A stretch of DNA of 37,730 nucleotides. Origin: a virus. Shown here piece by piece: positions 29,421 through 37,696 of this stretch (position 1 is its first letter; each line of letters opens with the position of its first letter). The position numbers and the translations under genes were made by a program. The DNA lies in IMG/VR virus record IMGVR_UViG_3300037189_006287, positions 1 through 37,730 of that record; one strand, written 5' to 3'. The notes beneath the pieces are model-generated. The model saw nothing but the letters and a program-made list of their open reading frames with translations. It had not been told where the DNA came from and made no database searches.

Positions 29421-32400
29421 ATGAGCCAATTAATTGATTTAGGAAAATTACGTTTCAGTTTTGCTGGTGACTGGAGCAACACAACAACTTACGAATCAAA
29501 TGATATTGTTAAGTATGGTGGTAATGTATATGTTTATACTTATGCATTGAAAACTAGCGGTAATTTGCCAACAAATACAGCTTACTGGGCCTTAATGATT
29601 GAAGGCTTTAAATTCAAAGGTGTATTTAGTTCTACTACAGCTTATAAAGTTGGTGACGGTATTGCCTATGGTGGTAAAGTTTATGTTTCGGTATTAGACA
29701 GTACAGGACAAACTCCTCCTAATACAACATATTGGTCCTTATTTGCTGACGGTATTCAATATGAAGGTACTTTTAATAGTGCTACTGCATATCAAAAAAA
29801 TGACGTAGTTGTTTATGGTGGTAGTGCATATATTGCTAAACAGGATACTACAGGTAATTTACCTACTGCTACTACATATTGGGATAAGTTTGTTGAAGGT
29901 GTAAGTGCTAAAAGCATTTACAATAATGCAACTGCTTATGTTCCTAATGATTTAGTAGCCTATGGCCCAAATATTTATCGTGCCACAACAAATACTACTG
30001 GTAATTTACCTAGTGATACTACAAAATGGGAAATTTTTATAGGCGGTAGTAAGTTTCAAGGTGCATATAATGGTGCTAGTACATACTATTTAAATGATTT
30101 AGTTACCTATGGCCCTAACCTTTATCGTAGTAAACAAACACAGAGCGCTACCTTACCAACAGTTACTGCAAATTGGGAATTGTTAATTGGTGGTGTGGGT
30201 TATCAAGGTATTTATAGTGCTGGTACTACATATTATTTAAATGATATTGTTAGCTATGGTTCAAATAGTTATCGTAGTAAACAAACACAAACTGGTACAT
30301 TACCAACTACTACAGCAAGTTGGGACTTACTTACTGAAGGATTCAGTTATCAAGGTGTTTGGACAAGTAGCACAAATTATAAAATTGGTCATGTAATTAC
30401 TTATGGTGGATCGTTATTTCAAGCTATTACTGACAATCAGAATGTTAATCCTACTACAACTGCTACTTGGAATAAATTAGTATACGGTACTAAAAATCGT
30501 GGCAACTGGACAACTAGTACTCAGTACGGTATTGATGAAGTAGTTGTTTATGGTGGTAATACTTATATTTGTATTACTCCACATGCTAGTACAGTATTTG
30601 AAACAAATTTAACTGCTGGTAACTGGCAAAAGTTTAACAGCGGTATACGTTGGAGAGGCACTTGGACTGCAAGTACTGATTATCTAAAAGACGATATTGT
30701 TAAAGATAGTTTAGGCAGTGCATATATTGCAGTAATAGACCATACTAGTACAGCAAGTTTTACTAGCGATTTAAATGGTACTAAATGGACTGTATTTGTA
30801 GTTGGTGCTAGTGATGTACTACCTGTTGTTACAACCGCAGATATTGGACAAAGTTTAACAGTTACAAGTAATGGTATTAATATTGATTGGCTAGGTGCAA
30901 CACAAAGTGTTAACACATACTATGTAGCGCCACATGGAGTTGACGATGTTAATCAAGGTAAAAATTTAGCTGCTCCTTTTGCTAGTATTAAGTATGCTTG
31001 CCAACGAGCTGCTGCTGCAGGTCAAACTTCTACAATTTTTGTAAAAACCGGAACTTATCAAGAACAATTACCTATTGTTGTTCCTCCTAATACAGCAGTT
31101 GTTGGAGATAATCAACGTACTGTAATTGTTACTCCTAAATCAGGTTTAAGTGACGATGGTGTTACTACAAATACTACTGCTACAATGTGGCAACTAAGTA
31201 ATGGTAGTATTTTAAATAAAATGACTTTTACTGGTATGACAGGTTGGCAAGTAGGAACTACTGCAGCCGATATATCAACCAGTACACCAAAAGGCGTAGT
31301 AGTAGGATTTAACCCTGCTAGTCCTATAACTACAAAATCACCATATGTTTTAGAGTGTTCTGCAATTTCTGCAGGATGTATTGGAGCATTAGTAGATGGT
31401 ACTATACACTCTACTGGCGCTAAAACTATGATTTTTCATGGTTATACCATTATTACAGATAACGGTGTTGGATACTGGGTTAAAGACGGCGGTAAATCTG
31501 AAATTGTTTCATGCTTTACTTACTATGCATACTTTGGTTATGCTACTACTGGCGGCGGACATATTCGTGCATTGAACGGTAATAATAGCTATGGTACTTA
31601 TGGTGTATATTCAAGCGGATATGATGTTACAGAAACTGCAATAACAGGTACACTTGTTGGTAGAGTAATTCCATTTACATATACTGGTAATAATATTAAT
31701 GTTGGTGATACTGTTACTGGAGACACAAGTGGAGCAACTGCCACAGTATTAAATGTACAGTATAGTGCTAATAAATTATACGTTAAAAATATTAGTGGTA
31801 CTTTTCAGACTAGTGAAAACTTACGAATTGGTGGAAATATAATTGGTAATACTAAAGCGGCTGTAACAAATCAAAGTGGATTTGTTTTAGTTGCAAAAGG
31901 GTTTAGCAGTCTTCCAAAACCTGGTAGTTCAATTAGTTTAACCGGCGATACATACAGCTATGTTATTCAAAGTACTACCGGCACGTGGACAAGTACAAAT
32001 AGCGAAATTGTATTAGTATTATCACAAGAAAAACCAACTGGTAGTGCTGATGGTACAGCAGTAACAATTCGTACTAAATATTCACAAACACGTTTAACTG
32101 GTCATGATTTCTTATCAATTGGTACTGGTGGTGTTGCAACAACTAATTATCCAAATACGCCAACACAACCAGCTGCACAAGGTAATGAAACTATTGAAAC
32201 ATTCCCAGGTCGTGTATTCTATGTAAGTACTGATCAAGACGGTAACTACAGAGTAGGTAAATATTTTAAAATTGACCAAGCAACTGGTAAAGCTACATTA
32301 AATGCTAGCGCATTTGATTTGAGTGGTTTAAGTAGTTTGCGTTTAGGTAGTATTGGTGCTCAACTTGGTGAAACTATTAATGAGTTTTCAAGTGATGCCA

Positions 32401-33899
32401 CACTATCCGATGCTAGTAATGTTGCAATTCCAACTGAGTATGCAGTAAAAACTTATGTAGATGGTAAAGACAGTGCTCGCGCAACTGCTACTACAACAGC
32501 TATTAGTACAGCAACTACAAATATTACAAGTGCATATACTACTGCAGTTGCTGCTAAAGTAGATAAAGCTGGCGATACAATGACTGGTGCACTAACATTA
32601 AGTGGTGCTCCTACTATTGACTTACATGCAGCTACTAAAAAATATGTAGATGATTTATTTGGATCAAGCGGGCTACCTGCTACTCCAGGTGAGACAGGTT
32701 TACTACAAATTACTAGCAGTGGAGTAAAATCATGGTATCCATTAAGCACTATTACTAGCGGTAATTTTCCTCAGTTTACTGGAAGTACGTATAATACTAG
32801 CAACTATATTAATACTCAAGTAACATATTTCCAAGCAGTAAATAAAGCTGGTGCTAGTACTACACATAGCTTAATTAGCGGTAGTTTACCAAGCGGTTGT
32901 AGCCTAGGTAGTGATGGTATAGTAACTATTGGTGGTACTACAACAGCAGGTACTGTATCTTTTACCATTCAAGCTGTTAGTGCTGGACAAACTGTTACTA
33001 GAGCTTTTACTTGGACGTATGATATTGGAGCTGTACCAACTAGTCAAACACTATACGGTACAAACTTTGGTAGTGGAACATTTACCTGGGTTGCCCCAGC
33101 TAGAGTTACTACTGTAAGTGCAGTAGCTGTTGGTGGTGGTGGTGCTGGTGCCTATATTTGGTCTAACAATGGTGGCGGTGGAGCTGGATTAGGTTGGAAA
33201 AATAATATTCCTGTTACACCTGGTACTGGCTATACTGTAGTAGTAGGTGCTGGTGGTAGTAGATATAGTTTTGGCGGATTTAATGGAGGCACCAGTTACT
33301 TTATTAGTTCTAGCACAGTAGCTGGTTATGGTGGCGGTGGAGCTGGTCAAGGTAACACTGGTGGACCTAATCAACGCAGTTTTGCTGGTGGTGGTTATGT
33401 AGGTGATGGTGGTGGTGCTGGCGGATTTTCTAATAGCTATCAAGGTGGTGGTGGAGCCGGTGGCTATACAGGTAATGGTGGCGACGCTCCTGGAGGCAGT
33501 AGATTTGGTAACTTTGCACCAACAGGTGGTGGTGGACAAGCAGGTGACTATTACTCTAGTTTTGCTGGCAGTAGTGGCGGAGGCGGTGTAGGCTTACTAG
33601 GAGCTGGACCAAGCGGGTATTTTAACTATACACCTTATAGTGGTAACTCTAGTTATGGCGGTGGCGAAGGCGGTAGCGGTGGTGAAAGAGGTACCTATGG
33701 TGAAAATCCTTTTAGTGGTATGATGGAACAAGGTTCTTTTGGCAGTTCTCCTGGTGGTAACTATGGTGGCGGTGGTGGCGGTTCAGGTACCATGAGTTTT
33801 AGCTATAGTAGTACAGGTGGTAACGGCGGTCAAGGTGGTGTAAGAATCATCTGGGGACCCGGTAGAAATTATCCAGCAACAAATACAGGCGATAGATAA
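29421..33899 (+). CDS. long tail fibre with carbohydrate-binding-like repeats, beta-helix and glycine-rich tip
   Basis: This 1492-residue protein is the likely main receptor-binding fibre. Residues about 8-470 hold nine repeats of 45-55 residues with the pattern Y-x2-(N/G)D-x-V-x-YG-x2-Y and a closing Trp, resembling CBM5/12 carbohydrate-binding modules. Residues about 490-830 read as a pectate-lyase-like beta-helix (YYVAPHGVDDVNQG, then PFASIKYACQRA). Around 1000-1080 is a fibre shaft with GDTMTGALTLSG and ATKKYVDDLFG. The last 280 residues are glycine-rich (GTFTWVAPARVTTVSAVAVG followed by many GGGG and GGAG runs, ending GGVRIIWGPGRNYP). This fits a polyglycine-type tip that sets host range. 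The combination is familiar from T4-like cyanophage fibres. A fibre-assembly gene follows. Confidence 0.85.
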   Translation: MSQLIDLGKLRFSFAGDWSNTTTYESNDIVKYGGNVYVYTYALKTSGNLPTNTAYWALMIEGFKFKGVFSSTTAYKVGDGIAYGGKVYVSVLDSTGQTPPNTTYWSLFADGIQYEGTFNSATAYQKNDVVVYGGSAYIAKQDTTGNLPTATTYWDKFVEGVSAKSIYNNATAYVPNDLVAYGPNIYRATTNTTGNLPSDTTKWEIFIGGSKFQGAYNGASTYYLNDLVTYGPNLYRSKQTQSATLPTVTANWELLIGGVGYQGIYSAGTTYYLNDIVSYGSNSYRSKQTQTGTLPTTTASWDLLTEGFSYQGVWTSSTNYKIGHVITYGGSLFQAITDNQNVNPTTTATWNKLVYGTKNRGNWTTSTQYGIDEVVVYGGNTYICITPHASTVFETNLTAGNWQKFNSGIRWRGTWTASTDYLKDDIVKDSLGSAYIAVIDHTSTASFTSDLNGTKWTVFVVGASDVLPVVTTADIGQSLTVTSNGINIDWLGATQSVNTYYVAPHGVDDVNQGKNLAAPFASIKYACQRAAAAGQTSTIFVKTGTYQEQLPIVVPPNTAVVGDNQRTVIVTPKSGLSDDGVTTNTTATMWQLSNGSILNKMTFTGMTGWQVGTTAADISTSTPKGVVVGFNPASPITTKSPYVLECSAISAGCIGALVDGTIHSTGAKTMIFHGYTIITDNGVGYWVKDGGKSEIVSCFTYYAYFGYATTGGGHIRALNGNNSYGTYGVYSSGYDVTETAITGTLVGRVIPFTYTGNNINVGDTVTGDTSGATATVLNVQYSANKLYVKNISGTFQTSENLRIGGNIIGNTKAAVTNQSGFVLVAKGFSSLPKPGSSISLTGDTYSYVIQSTTGTWTSTNSEIVLVLSQEKPTGSADGTAVTIRTKYSQTRLTGHDFLSIGTGGVATTNYPNTPTQPAAQGNETIETFPGRVFYVSTDQDGNYRVGKYFKIDQATGKATLNASAFDLSGLSSLRLGSIGAQLGETINEFSSDATLSDASNVAIPTEYAVKTYVDGKDSARATATTTAISTATTNITSAYTTAVAAKVDKAGDTMTGALTLSGAPTIDLHAATKKYVDDLFGSSGLPATPGETGLLQITSSGVKSWYPLSTITSGNFPQFTGSTYNTSNYINTQVTYFQAVNKAGASTTHSLISGSLPSGCSLGSDGIVTIGGTTTAGTVSFTIQAVSAGQTVTRAFTWTYDIGAVPTSQTLYGTNFGSGTFTWVAPARVTTVSAVAVGGGGAGAYIWSNNGGGGAGLGWKNNIPVTPGTGYTVVVGAGGSRYSFGGFNGGTSYFISSSTVAGYGGGGAGQGNTGGPNQRSFAGGGYVGDGGGAGGFSNSYQGGGGAGGYTGNGGDAPGGSRFGNFAPTGGGGQAGDYYSSFAGSSGGGGVGLLGAGPSGYFNYTPYSGNSSYGGGEGGSGGERGTYGENPFSGMMEQGSFGSSPGGNYGGGGGGSGTMSFSYSSTGGNGGQGGVRIIWGPGRNYPATNTGDR

Positions 33900-33900
33900 T

Positions 33901-34407
33901 ATGAATAAAGATAAATTTTATATACAAGTAGACGAAAATGGGGTGATCACCGATCACCCCATGAATTTAGAAAGTGCTAAAAATTTAGTAGCTTTTAGAC
34001 AAAATAAATTTGACTATGAAATAACAGAAGAAATAATTTTAAACAGCGGATTTAAACTATTTGAATTTCATATTGAACCACCTACTGTACGAATTGTAGG
34101 TGAAGCTGGATATGAAGTGCAGCCTAGTGGTGTAGTTCACCGTAAATTCGATGTTGTACAACTAACGCAAGAAGAGCGTATAAATGAGTGGATTAGAAAA
34201 GGTAGAGATGATATGTTAATTAGAAGTGATTGGACACAACTTCCAGACACTAAATTAACTGCTGCAGAAAAAGCATTATGGGTTACGTTTAGACAACAAC
34301 TACGTGCTATGACAACAACTTTTAAAGATGTAACTGATCCTAGTCAAATTGTGTGGCCACAACCACCTACAACAGTTAATAGTACTTCTCCAAACACAAG
34401 TTTATAA
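33901..34407 (+). CDS. tail fibre assembly chaperone (Tfa-like)
   Basis: This 168-residue protein directly follows the long fibre gene, the usual place for a dedicated fibre chaperone. The C-terminal half has the characteristic pattern IRSDWTQLPDTKLTAAEKAL, then a WVTFRQQLRAM helix and a VWPQPP end, as in tail fibre assembly proteins and related chaperones. The N-terminal half is a small beta region. No good Shine-Dalgarno sequence is seen; the ATG comes 1 nt after the fibre stop, so translation is probably coupled. A perfect 11-bp hairpin lies 37 nt after the start. Confidence 0.8.
   Translation: MNKDKFYIQVDENGVITDHPMNLESAKNLVAFRQNKFDYEITEEIILNSGFKLFEFHIEPPTVRIVGEAGYEVQPSGVVHRKFDVVQLTQEERINEWIRKGRDDMLIRSDWTQLPDTKLTAAEKALWVTFRQQLRAMTTTFKDVTDPSQIVWPQPPTTVNSTSPNTSL
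33938..33962 (+). repeat. 11-bp perfect hairpin inside the fibre-assembly gene
   Basis: ATGGGGTGATC (33938-33948) and GATCACCCCAT (33952-33962) are perfect inverted copies with an ACC loop. There is no T tract. It lies 37 nt after the start codon, where a folded RNA could affect early elongation, and just past the end of the fibre gene, where it could mark a processing site. Confidence 0.7.
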
Positions 34408-34425: not shown

Positions 34426-35151
34426 TTGTCACAGTTTATAAAAAATTTATTTGCTACACCAGTATTTACTGGTGTAGTAAGTAATATACAAATTACACAA
34501 TCTATTTGTGATTTGGCCTATAAATATAAAAGTACAGCTAAGGATGCCAGATTGGTGTCCGATAGCTGGAATTTTGGTAAAAAGAGTTCTGATCAAAAAG
34601 ATTTTAACGAAAAAGGTATAACTAGTTTTTGTTCTACTGAAGATTTATTTAATAGTCCTGAGTGGAATCATATTGCAAAATTTATTATAAATTTTGCAAT
34701 GGAAATGCTAGAGCCTGAAAATAACAATAAAGATCAGTTACTTACACTACAAAATATGTGGACAACTATATACCCAAAAGGTGCATTTGTTCCACAACAC
34801 GTTCATAGTAATACATTATTAAGCGGTGTATTTTATGCTAAAGCATTACCTAATTGTGGTGGTTTAAGTTTTCAAGATCCAGCATATATTGCAAAAACCA
34901 TGTATGCTAATGATTTTACTAATTTTCCTACTGTATTAACAAGGTATGTAGAGTCAGCAGAAACAGGAAAAATGATTATATTTCCTGGTTGGTTACCACA
35001 TGAGTCATTACCTAATAATAGTGAAGATGACAGAATTATTATTGGTTTTAATATTAATATGATTAATAAATCAGAATACGATCAATATAAAATAGTAAAC
35101 TCAAATAATGATTTAAAAAGATTTCGCCCAATAATGGTATTAGAAAAATGA
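34426..35151 (+). CDS. putative 2-oxoglutarate/Fe(II)-dependent oxygenase
   Basis: This 241-residue protein resembles the small 2OG-Fe(II) oxygenases found in cyanophages and aquatic bacteria (TIGR02466-like, from memory). The core is WTTIYPKGAFVPQHVHSNTL, then LSGVFYAKALPNCGGLSFQD. A later segment reads MIIFPGWLPHESLPN followed by DRIIIGFNINM. Candidate iron ligands are His125 or His127 and His192; Arg203 could bind 2-oxoglutarate. The usual Asp/Glu two residues after the first His is not obvious (Ser128 or Asn129), so activity is unproven. The substrate is unknown. The start is TTG with AAAGG 7 nt upstream. Its stop overlaps the heme oxygenase start (ATGA), linking it to the bilin genes. 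Confidence 0.7.
   Translation: MSQFIKNLFATPVFTGVVSNIQITQSICDLAYKYKSTAKDARLVSDSWNFGKKSSDQKDFNEKGITSFCSTEDLFNSPEWNHIAKFIINFAMEMLEPENNNKDQLLTLQNMWTTIYPKGAFVPQHVHSNTLLSGVFYAKALPNCGGLSFQDPAYIAKTMYANDFTNFPTVLTRYVESAETGKMIIFPGWLPHESLPNNSEDDRIIIGFNINMINKSEYDQYKIVNSNNDLKRFRPIMVLEK
34454..34477 (+). repeat. 11-bp hairpin inside the oxygenase gene
   Basis: CTACACCAGTA (34454-34464) and TACTGGTGTAG (34467-34477) are perfect inverted copies with a 2-nt centre, in practice a 9-10 bp stem. It lies 28 nt after the TTG start and has no T tract. It is one of several hairpins placed shortly after start codons in this region. Confidence 0.65.
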
Positions 35152-35669
35152 CTACATTAAAAGAACTGACCAATCATAATCATGTATTAGCCGAACAACA
35201 TAGTTTCACTAAATTGTTACTAAGTGGTAATATTACTAGTGGTATCTACACTACTTTTTTAGCAAATCAATTACTACAGTATCAAACACTAGAACACTGT
35301 GCTAAACATTTATTGAGTGAAATTCCAGGATTAGCTCGCAGTGAGTTGATTATGCAAGACGTATTAGAGCTGGATGAGCCTGTAATCTTTTTTGATACTA
35401 CGGCTGAATACTGTAATCATGTTAAACAGTTGAACGATAATGGTTTATGGGCACACATATATACCAAACATATGGGCGACCTATATGGCGGTCAAATACT
35501 TAAAAAAGTAGTACCTGGTAGTGGTTTAATGTATCAATTTGACAACAGAAAATTAATGATAGACAAACTAAGAACAAAACTAGATATTTCAATGGCACCA
35601 GAAGCAAACTATGCTTTTGAATCTGCAATCAAATTATTTAGCAGGATAGCAGATGAGTACAATCTTTAA
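35148..35669 (+). CDS. hemO: heme oxygenase (heme to biliverdin)
   Basis: The family's function is to open heme with O2 and reductant to give biliverdin IXalpha, CO and Fe2+. At 173 residues this is shorter than cyanobacterial heme oxygenases (about 235-240), but the core is intact. The N-terminus LKELTNHNHVLAEQHSF aligns with the proximal helix of known enzymes, with His12 in the position of human HO-1 His25. The segment HIYTKHMGDLYGGQILKK (103-120) matches the distal-helix signature (HAYTRYLGDLSGGQVLKK in HO-1), including Asp111 and the flexible glycines. The missing length is C-terminal. Electrons would have to come from host ferredoxin or another donor. It is coupled to the gene before it (ATGA) and overlaps the bilin reductase gene by 17 nt. 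The symbol is functional and not taken from a database. Confidence 0.9.
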   Translation: MTTLKELTNHNHVLAEQHSFTKLLLSGNITSGIYTTFLANQLLQYQTLEHCAKHLLSEIPGLARSELIMQDVLELDEPVIFFDTTAEYCNHVKQLNDNGLWAHIYTKHMGDLYGGQILKKVVPGSGLMYQFDNRKLMIDKLRTKLDISMAPEANYAFESAIKLFSRIADEYNL

Positions 35670-36339
35670 TAAACTTAAAAAGCACGCTACAGAAATGGAA
35701 AGCATTATCAGTACGCGTGCTTTTTTATTGGATAGTGGTGATCAATATTCGTGGATAAATAAAGTATATCAGTGTGCTTGGTTTCGCAGAGCACACATGG
35801 ATATTATAGACGCTATTGATACTAAAAAATTGTACATGATGCACATTTGTGTATTTCCACATACTTATGATGCGGCACCGCTATATGGTTTTGATATTAT
35901 AGCTGGCACAAATAAGGTAACCGGAGCATTTTTAGACTTTAGTCCTATTGGCGATCCTGATCATCCATTATGTAAATACTTTGCAGAACTAGTAGAACCT
36001 ACTCAGTGGTCTAAGCCACGAGAATTGCCCGAATGGGCACGCAATATTTTTAGCAAACAAATGGTAGCAGCTGGAAATATTAACACAGATTTTGAGCTGG
36101 ACGTTGTATTGGAGTTGTCTAAAAAGTCGTTAATATACTACTTAGACAATATTAAAACGCACAGACCTGCAATGACCTATGATGATCAGGTAGCTAAATA
36201 TAATTTTACTGATCAACAGAATTATTATTGCCAACAACAAAAACAAAACCCACATACTCCTAGAGTATTAAAAGGATTAGGTTTTTCAGAGGAAATGGCA
36301 CATGATTTTATACATAAAGAGTTATTTCCAGAAATATGA
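35653..36339 (+). CDS. pcyX: ferredoxin-dependent bilin reductase, PcyX/PcyA type
   Basis: This 228-residue enzyme should reduce biliverdin made by the upstream heme oxygenase to a phycobilin. Family hallmarks are WFRRAHMDII (residues 43-52), MHICVFPHTYDAAPLYGFD (63-81) and IIAGTNKVTGAFLDFSP (82-98). His64 and Asp81 are 17 apart, the same spacing as catalytic His88 and Asp105 of PcyA; His48 matches PcyA His74. PcyA Glu76, needed for the exovinyl reduction, is replaced by Asp50. Cyanophage PebS is understood to have Asn in place of His88, so PcyX-like activity (phycoerythrobilin) is the best guess. The ATG overlaps the heme oxygenase end by 17 nt, with AGGA at 35644-35647. A terminator-like hairpin lies 24 nt inside the gene. 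Family membership is clear; the exact product is inferred. Confidence 0.85.
   Translation: MSTIFNKLKKHATEMESIISTRAFLLDSGDQYSWINKVYQCAWFRRAHMDIIDAIDTKKLYMMHICVFPHTYDAAPLYGFDIIAGTNKVTGAFLDFSPIGDPDHPLCKYFAELVEPTQWSKPRELPEWARNIFSKQMVAAGNINTDFELDVVLELSKKSLIYYLDNIKTHRPAMTYDDQVAKYNFTDQQNYYCQQQKQNPHTPRVLKGLGFSEEMAHDFIHKELFPEI
35677..35726 (+). promoter_or_regulatory. terminator-like hairpin inside the bilin reductase gene
   Basis: AAAAAGCACGC (35677-35687) and GCGTGCTTTTT (35715-35725) are perfect 11-bp inverted copies with a 27-nt loop, followed by a T tract (T through 35726, then ATT). The loop is longer than usual for an intrinsic terminator. Translating ribosomes would normally prevent it from folding, so it could couple bilin reductase and lysis gene transcription to translation of this cassette. 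Confidence 0.55.
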
Positions 36340-36387: not shown

Positions 36388-36822
36388 ATGTGGATATTAC
36401 AATTTTTACCTAATTGGTTATTTTATTTATTATTATTTACAGGCATAGTCGGTTATTTACTTAGTAATACATTATTAAAATTATTGCCTTATACTGATGT
36501 AATTAAAATCGCTAGCGTATTCACAATAGTATTTGGTATTTTTATGGTTGGTGCAGTACACGACAATGATGCCTGGGTTCAACGTAGTCAAGAATTACAG
36601 CAAAAAGTATTACAATTAGAAACAAAAAGCGCAGAAACCAATACTAAAATAGTAGAAAAAGTACTTGTTAAAAAACAAGTTATTAAAGAGCGCGGCGATG
36701 AAATTGTAAAGTATATTGACCGTGAAGTTGTCAAAGATAATGAAGTGGTAAAATATATTGAGCACTGCCCTAAACTGCCAACTGAAATAATTAACACAAT
36801 TAATCAGGCAGCAAAACCATGA
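36388..36822 (+). CDS. inner-membrane spanin-like protein with two membrane segments
   Basis: This 144-residue protein has two hydrophobic segments at about 4-26 (FLPNWLFYLLLFTGIVGYLL) and 38-56, then a charged coiled coil (about 62-125) and a short Pro/Ile-rich end. A membrane anchor plus periplasmic coiled coil directly before a small lipoprotein gene is the layout of Rz/Rz1 spanins, which fuse inner and outer membranes at the last step of lysis. Lambda Rz has only one membrane segment, so the extra one is unusual. No separate holin is seen in the window, and this protein might carry part of that role. GAAGGA (36374-36379) serves the ATG. Confidence 0.7.
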   Translation: MWILQFLPNWLFYLLLFTGIVGYLLSNTLLKLLPYTDVIKIASVFTIVFGIFMVGAVHDNDAWVQRSQELQQKVLQLETKSAETNTKIVEKVLVKKQVIKERGDEIVKYIDREVVKDNEVVKYIEHCPKLPTEIINTINQAAKP

Positions 36823-37082
36823 AATACTTATTAATCGTATTAATTTTATTATTAACTGGTTGTAGTACAACTGTACCAGTTAAACAAAAGTTTCCATTAG
36901 TGCCAGAGCAACTATTAACTAGTTGTAAGCCTCTACAATTAATGGATAAAGATAGCTCTATTATTGATGCTACTAAAGTAGTTGTTAATAATTATACTGA
37001 ATATTATCAGTGTACTGTTCTAGTAGATACTTGGCAACAATGGTATCGTGAACAAAAATTAATTTTTGAGGAATTACGATGA
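36819..37082 (+). CDS. outer-membrane lipoprotein spanin, Rz1-like
   Basis: This 87-residue protein starts with a lipoprotein signal peptide, MKYLLIVLILLLTGC, with the lipobox LTGC and Cys15 as the lipidated residue. The mature part is about 73 residues, with two further Cys and an aromatic C-terminal segment (WQQWYREQKLIF). Paired with the upstream coiled-coil membrane protein it forms a two-component spanin, which implies a Gram-negative host. The start overlaps the previous stop (ATGA), and the gene overlaps the endolysin start by 4 nt. A 9-bp hairpin (TTAACTGGT 36852-36860, ACCAGTTAA 36875-36883) lies 33 nt after the start, over the lipobox codons. Confidence 0.8.
   Translation: MKYLLIVLILLLTGCSTTVPVKQKFPLVPEQLLTSCKPLQLMDKDSSIIDATKVVVNNYTEYYQCTVLVDTWQQWYREQKLIFEELR
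36852..36883 (+). repeat. 9-bp hairpin with inner stem inside the lipoprotein gene
   Basis: TTAACTGGT (36852-36860) pairs with ACCAGTTAA (36875-36883). The loop can form an inner stem TTGT/ACAA. It covers the lipobox codons, 33 nt after the start. Chance formation is possible at this length, but the position repeats that of other hairpins in the region. Confidence 0.45.
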
Positions 37083-37696
37083 CTGAACTAACCCTAGCTC
37101 AATTAAAACAAATAATTCCTAAAAATAAATACCATCAGCACTGGTTTGATGTATTACAACAACTATTACCAGACTACGAAATCAATACTCCACAACGTAT
37201 TGCCAGTTTTTTAGCACAATGTGCTCACGAGTCTGGAGAGTTTGTTTTTATTAAAGAAAACTTAAACTATCGTGCTGCTACTTTACTAAAAGTATTTCCA
37301 AAATATTTTCCTGATTTGGCGCTGGCATCACAATATGCTGGCAAACCTGAACGCATAGCAAATAGAGTATATGCTAATCGTATGGGTAATGGTAGTGAAG
37401 AGTCGGGTGACGGTTATAAGTATTGTGGTCGTGGTTTAATACAAGTAACTGGTCATGATAACTATACTTGGTTTGCTGAATCTATACTAGTTAGTCCTGA
37501 AGAAGCTTCCGAATATATGGAAACTTTTGAAGGAGCGGCACAATCAGCTTGTTGGTTCTGGGAAACTGCTAATTTAAACACACTAGCAGATCGTGGCGAT
37601 ATTAAAGCCATGACAAAAACTATTAACGGTGGTTACATTGGTTTAGAAGATCGTATTAGCCACTATGAACATGCACTTCACGTTTTAGGAGTTTAA
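37079..37696 (+). CDS. endolysin, glycoside hydrolase family 19
   Basis: This 205-residue enzyme should cut peptidoglycan sugar chains at the end of infection. The GH19 core is clear: FLAQCAHESGEFVFIKENLN holds Glu51 (general acid) and Glu60 (likely general base), followed by ANRMGNGSEESGDGYKYCGR and GLIQVTGHDNY, then a tail with ETANLNTLADRGDIKAMTKT and INGGYIGLEDR. There is no signal peptide or cell-wall-binding domain, so a holin elsewhere is expected to release it. GAGGA at 37068-37072 serves the ATG, which overlaps the spanin stop (ATGA). Confidence 0.93.
   Translation: MTELTLAQLKQIIPKNKYHQHWFDVLQQLLPDYEINTPQRIASFLAQCAHESGEFVFIKENLNYRAATLLKVFPKYFPDLALASQYAGKPERIANRVYANRMGNGSEESGDGYKYCGRGLIQVTGHDNYTWFAESILVSPEEASEYMETFEGAAQSACWFWETANLNTLADRGDIKAMTKTINGGYIGLEDRISHYEHALHVLGV

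Follow-up and report, generated by a model that had tools for sequence, protein, structure and literature searches.

A heme oxygenase-PcyX bilin reductase pair in a group of T5-like siphoviruses

Genes for a heme oxygenase (HO) and a ferredoxin-dependent bilin reductase (FDBR) are known as phage metabolic genes from the cyanophages, which carry ho1, pcyA, and pebS; the phage DNA described here has the same combination of enzymes. HemO and an FDBR also occur together, again as here, in the hemO-pcyA/X-valaS cassettes (e.g., CB_2) of marine and freshwater phages with proposed non-cyanobacterial hosts, in which their function has been called enigmatic (PMC11480375). The published marine contigs with this cassette were placed among myoviruses by gp13, with siphoviruses going unmentioned (PMC11480375). 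The marine PcyX produces phycoerythrobilin (PEB) and the CB_2 FDBR produces PCB, and Asp55 has been named as a PcyX-specific residue (PMC11480375). In the Pelagibacter phage Mosig EXVC030M (MT647606), genes for a 2OG-Fe(II) oxygenase, an HO, and PcyX follow one another with overlaps near the tail genes, in the same order as at the locus studied here. What purpose bilins might serve in phages of apparently non-phototrophic bacteria has already been asked in print (PMC11480375), including the form in which an earlier note on this DNA posed it.

The two enzymes

The window, i.e., the whole stretch of DNA analyzed, is an entire IMG/VR contig of 37,730 bases and hence a fragment; all 28 of its called genes lie on the + strand. 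Two adjacent, overlapping ORFs, located as the earlier note had placed them, form the pair:

35148-35669, + strand: heme oxygenase (HemO), 173 aa (PF01126, 4.1e-17)
35653-36339, + strand: PcyX-type FDBR, 228 aa (PF05996, 2.2e-24; phrog_7278, 7e-26)
35653-35669, + strand: 17 nt shared by HO (its end) and PcyX (its start), seen in the sequence; within HO, an AGGA precedes the PcyX ATG

Both genes significantly match their families above the curated cut-offs. HemO scores 63.1 bits against a cut-off of 23 (HMMER) over residues 2-123, and the C-terminal part is HO-like too by structure match; the PDB HO-1 structure 1we1 is matched at 1.2e-7. An AlphaFold model (pLDDT 97.4, from a 61-sequence alignment) predicts an all-helical HO fold, with HmuO, HO-1, and HO-2 recovered by Foldseek at a probability of 1.00 and a TM (query) of 0.77-0.87 among the 50 matches listed. 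With 173 residues versus 205-245 in most Foldseek targets, HemO is a compact form. His12, Tyr105, Asp111, Gly114, and Gly115 are invariant in 61/61 sequences; Lys5 is K or R, and Arg142 and the C-terminal Phe157 and Phe164 are kept in 60/61, 55/61, and 49/61, respectively. His12 and the distal motif G110-D-L-Y-G-G-Q116, which the earlier note had picked out, are thus borne out by conservation. We take His12, Tyr105, Asp111, Gly114/Gly115, and Arg142 to be the equivalents of human HO-1 His25, Tyr134, Asp140, Gly143/144, and Arg183, His12 presumably being the proximal His and the Lys, Tyr, and Arg positions the propionate-binding residues in HO-1 numbering. These features identify 35148-35669 as a complete, compact HO-1/HmuO-type heme oxygenase, which is predicted to turn over heme.

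The second protein, whose PF05996 match is far above the curated cut-off (HMMER), has PcyX_EBK42635 (5owg) as its best solved structure by sequence (3.8e-52, versus 1e-15 for PcyA and 0.012 for PebA), and in the tree the PcyX reference falls within the phage clade that holds the window protein, with PcyA outside. The top Foldseek matches of its AlphaFold model (pLDDT 94.0) are PcyA and PcyX. The predicted active-site residues are Asp50, His64, and Asp81, the latter two, proposed earlier from the letters alone, being likewise conserved in the alignments. With residues numbered by a chain offset of 8 (Mosig PcyX starts at chain residue 9 of 5owg), Asp50 (chain residue 63 of 5owg) corresponds to PcyX Asp55, His64 to His69, and Asp81 to Asp86; this triad is common to the window protein, Mosig PcyX, and PcyX_EBK42635. 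Asp50 stands in place of PcyA Glu76: the position is Asp in 93/93 PcyX-like rows and Glu in 9/9 PcyA rows, and in a second alignment set it is Asp in 56/57. The exception, an FDBR paired with an HO (L126:4528-5202), has Asn at the Asp55 position. These observations support the affinity to PcyX, although the protein shares just 41-43% or so of its residues with Mosig PcyX and is similarly distant from characterized PcyX. By analogy with the latter, the product is very probably PEB.

Overlap and selection

The AGGA within HO suggests a probable translational coupling of HO and PcyX. Across 21 siphovirus pairs the overlap is 17 nt (n=11), 20 nt (n=9), or, with an uncertain start, 71 nt (n=1). Against the nearest relatives (L003, L004, L005, and L010), HO has a dN/dS of about 0.08-0.10 and PcyX one of about 0.05-0.10; in more distant pairs, in which synonymous sites are saturated, the ratio is still well below 1. 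These ratios point to strong purifying selection on both genes, and, as both frames are also intact at 18 other siphovirus loci, the pair is not a chance arrangement.

A T5-like phage group

At its left end the window enters a capsid gene:

3-1460, + strand: major capsid protein, truncated at the 5' end by the contig edge (phrog_267, 1.5e-8; T5-like phage matches)

Further structural genes of the window encode a connector, a tail terminator, a major tail protein, chaperones, a tape measure, and J. The capsid is about 31% identical to those of Aeromonas, Klebsiella, and Vibrio T5-like phages and 63-83% identical to those of its closer relatives, two of whose contigs are as long as 99.9 and 102.2 kb; the complete genome of the window phage is probably near 100 kb. 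In relatives, the capsid is part of a prohead protease-capsid fusion of about 640 aa (L206:13626-15542 and L211:12739-14661), and the window start falls inside this fusion gene.

The window holds only the capsid-to-lysis part of the genome, and the T5-type core genes were examined in the relatives G017 and G020. Their TerL is ~50% identical to that of Vibrio T5-like phages and their D5-like regulator ~47% identical to its counterparts there; they also encode DnaB, DnaG, an SbcC-like ATPase, a metallophosphoesterase, a 5'-3' exonuclease, and PhoH. The NAD-dependent DNA ligase is seemingly divided between neighboring ORFs, one for the adenylation/OB part and one for BRCT (L203:14024-15812), and one T5-like genome has a class II (B12-dependent) ribonucleotide reductase (RNR) near roseophage enzymes (L204:9596-11563). 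In the window's group, ten contigs yielded no sheath gene, a negative that is not absolute, as the same search found the sheath in one T4-like contig with the pair but none in a second T4-neck contig. The T5-type capsid, TerL, D5, and replication genes, together with the lack of a detected sheath, place the window phage in a T5-like siphovirus group related to the Demerecviridae. Of the earlier description as a lambda-like siphovirus, the siphovirus structural and lysis setting stands; the lambda-like label does not, for only the tail J homolog recalls lambda.

J has its best match in a Curvibacter phage, which we rejected as T5-like kin, its record annotation showing DNA polymerases A and B and a class Ia RNR. 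Since J points to this phage, TerL and D5 to Vibrio T5-like phages, and the class II RNR to roseophages, we name no host; it is presumably non-phototrophic. Within the window there are no tRNA genes, no Rfam matches, and no promoter-like sites above the shuffled-sequence count. The tail fiber encoded at 29421-33899, in a fast-changing part of the genome, contains six CBM_5_12 repeats and, at its C-terminus, a domain rich in glycine.

An accessory module beside the lysis genes

The surroundings of the pair in the window are as follows:

33901-34407, + strand: tail fiber assembly chaperone, bordering the accessory site on its upstream side (PF16778, 6.9e-14)
34426-35151, + strand: 2OG-Fe(II) oxygenase, an optional neighbor (PF13759, 2.7e-17; phrog_81, 8e-38)
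36388-36822, + strand: Rz-like inner-membrane spanin (weak phrog_214/8821 matches; position; conserved downstream of PcyX)
36819-37082, + strand: Rz1-like outer-membrane spanin lipoprotein (PF23793, 1.2e-8)
37079-37696, + strand: chitinase-like endolysin (phrog_181, 1.1e-75)

The siphovirus pair is found downstream of tail-fiber and chaperone genes and mostly right before those for Rz, Rz1, and the endolysin, with extra genes intervening in some contigs. The 2OG-Fe(II) oxygenase gene meets HO in a 4-nt ATGA overlap. The gene upstream of the pair varies, being one of two kinds of 2OG oxygenase, an epimerase, or none, and we rejected a 2OG-HO-PcyX trio as a unit because most related cassettes either lack the 2OG gene or have another in its place. 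An NAD-dependent epimerase gene overlaps the HO start in some relatives (L209:12451-13311), at the slot of the 2OG gene in the window.

Of nine capsid relatives with contigs extending to the endolysin, both genes are present in four (G025, G026, G031, and G032) and neither in five (G027-G030 and G033), other, mostly unassigned genes filling that stretch in the latter. This distribution identifies the HO-PcyX pair as an accessory module within the T5-like group. In 18 related contigs of the group, many of them incomplete, there was no match for a ferredoxin gene, an AlaS-type gene (Aminotran_1_2, PF00155), or a phycobiliprotein-family gene.

Distribution and exchange among viruses

The pair is less novel than the earlier note implied: PcyX relatives are encoded in at least 560 IMG/VR stretches, HO-PcyX is common in uncultured phages, and the closest pair in an isolate belongs to a SAR11 phage. 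HO adjoins or lies near PcyX in 84/86 non-cyanophage viral loci, the two exceptions ending at a contig edge. In the phage collection the HO matches are mostly cyanophages, and T5-like isolates gave no HO or FDBR match; no pair was found on plasmids. Mosig-like HO and PcyX genes are present on four metagenome-assembled genome (MAG) contigs labeled bacterial (L180, L181, L182, and L183). We did not accept these as bacterial carriage: over 20 kb, the 335-kb one among them, labeled Neomarinimicrobiota, shows no genes clearly of host type, and it may be a large phage binned in error.

Siphoviruses and T4-neck phages form largely separate groups within one PcyX family, which argues that PcyX was transferred, in either direction, between siphoviruses and T4-type phages. 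The HO gene appears to have been swapped between phages while the pairing and the overlap persisted. Few forks of the HO tree are strongly supported, and the sole well-supported swap is that of L006, with a window-type PcyX but an HO that groups with L018 and L021 (support 100/98); the HO of L020 groups with that of the T4-neck contig L043 at moderate support (88/92).

Predicted pathway and possible benefit

Heme conversion through biliverdin to a phycobilin, as suggested in the earlier note, is supported as a prediction by the enzyme matches and active-site residues, and we consider it likely that a coupled HemO-PcyX module takes heme to biliverdin and on to PEB. This assessment covers the enzyme pathway and excludes its benefit, with activities and product taken from characterized homologs. 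HemO would open heme to biliverdin IX-alpha, freeing Fe(II) and CO, and PcyX would draw four electrons from the ferredoxin of the host, or from an equivalent donor, and reduce biliverdin to 15,16-dihydrobiliverdin and then to PEB, a pink pigment. As no phage ferredoxin was found in the 18 contigs, the pair presumably relies on host reductant. Its place between the tail and lysis genes suggests that the module would be expressed late.

As for the benefit, we tentatively propose a late breakdown of host heme, by which iron would be freed, free heme lowered, and biliverdin cleared by PcyX so that HO keeps turning over. We lean to biliverdin removal over a specific chromophore because HO and some FDBR are conserved while phages differ in which product they make (PEB or PCB). 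One caveat is that, with iron as the sole aim, HO alone might suffice.

It is somewhat unlikely that the bilin is itself the wanted product, with PEB being bound by a host phytochrome, a bilin-binding globin (BBAG), or a phage protein and altering host signaling or protecting from light or oxidants. Consistent with such a role, PcyX is always retained with HO, non-photosynthetic bacteria have bilin-binding globins linked to their pre-PcyA genes (PMC10151467), and the CB_2 PcyA yields a functional phytochrome chromophore (PMC11480375); however, the product differs from phage to phage (PMC11480375), and the 18 contigs, many incomplete, are without a phycobiliprotein-family gene.

We regard as unlikely the proposal that PcyX is secondary and that HO releases iron for use by iron enzymes of the phage or host, such as the adjacent 2OG-Fe(II) oxygenases, or for iron-loaded tails. 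A role involving iron has been put forward (PMC11480375), 2OG-Fe(II) oxygenases adjoin the pair in the window, several relatives, and Mosig, and the last also has a putative ferrochelatase, but the 2OG gene is optional. The variant with iron-loaded tails was rejected, as the tail fiber proteins of the window are devoid of the HxH iron-binding motif.

Heme breakdown with biliverdin removal also seems likelier than light harvesting. That the host is a cyanobacterium whose phycobilisome chromophores the phage sustains, as proposed for cyanophages, would accord with the ho1, pebS, and pcyA genes of the latter and with their predominance among the HO matches in the phage collection, yet it is very unlikely here: the FDBR is of the PcyX type and neither PebS nor cyanophage PcyA, the T5-like core has its nearest relatives among Vibrio phages, and the isolate with the closest pair is a SAR11 phage. 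Further, the earlier observation that no photosynthesis genes are in sight holds within the window, which is only part of the genome. That the genes are hitchhiking morons without present function is scarcely credible, for although the pair is in just 4/9 relatives covering the lysis region and occupies a variable stretch, it has stayed under purifying selection across long divergence, with its active sites intact and its pairing and overlap retained.

Returning to heme breakdown, we offer, more tentatively still, a wider proposal: T5-like siphoviruses of non-photosynthetic hosts might have swapped HO-PcyX with T4-like phages, with late heme breakdown and biliverdin removal, not pigment supply, as the selected function. 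Close relatives that either carry or lack the pair at one site, along with the natural HO swaps, would let its fitness effect be tested comparatively once a host is known, and T5-like relatives have been cultured on Vibrio and enteric bacteria.

Comparison with known systems

Mosig is a T4-like myovirus, whereas the window phage is a T5-like siphovirus, and their HO and PcyX proteins are 40% and 41-43% identical, respectively. The pair is followed by neck genes in Mosig and by the spanins and endolysin in the window; Mosig additionally has the putative ferrochelatase and several 2OG oxygenases. The CB_2 FDBR, which makes PCB, lacks Asp55, whereas the window PcyX has its equivalent, Asp50. The valaS cassettes carry an AlaS gene, unlike the window group, in which PF00155 had no match in the 18 contigs, many incomplete. 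In cyanophage PcyA, which branches outside the PcyX clade, Glu occupies the Asp50 position, and at six IMG/VR P-SSM4-like loci with cyanophage PcyA no HO was found nearby. Vibrio T5-like siphoviruses such as vB_ValS_X1 and Thalassa (about 110-128 kb) are capsid relatives, and their TerL and D5 are similar to those of the window group, but, unlike the window phage, they have no HO or FDBR match. We found no paper in the open-access literature describing the pair in T5-like phages. What is new here is a second, unrelated phage lineage for the known HO-PcyX cassette.
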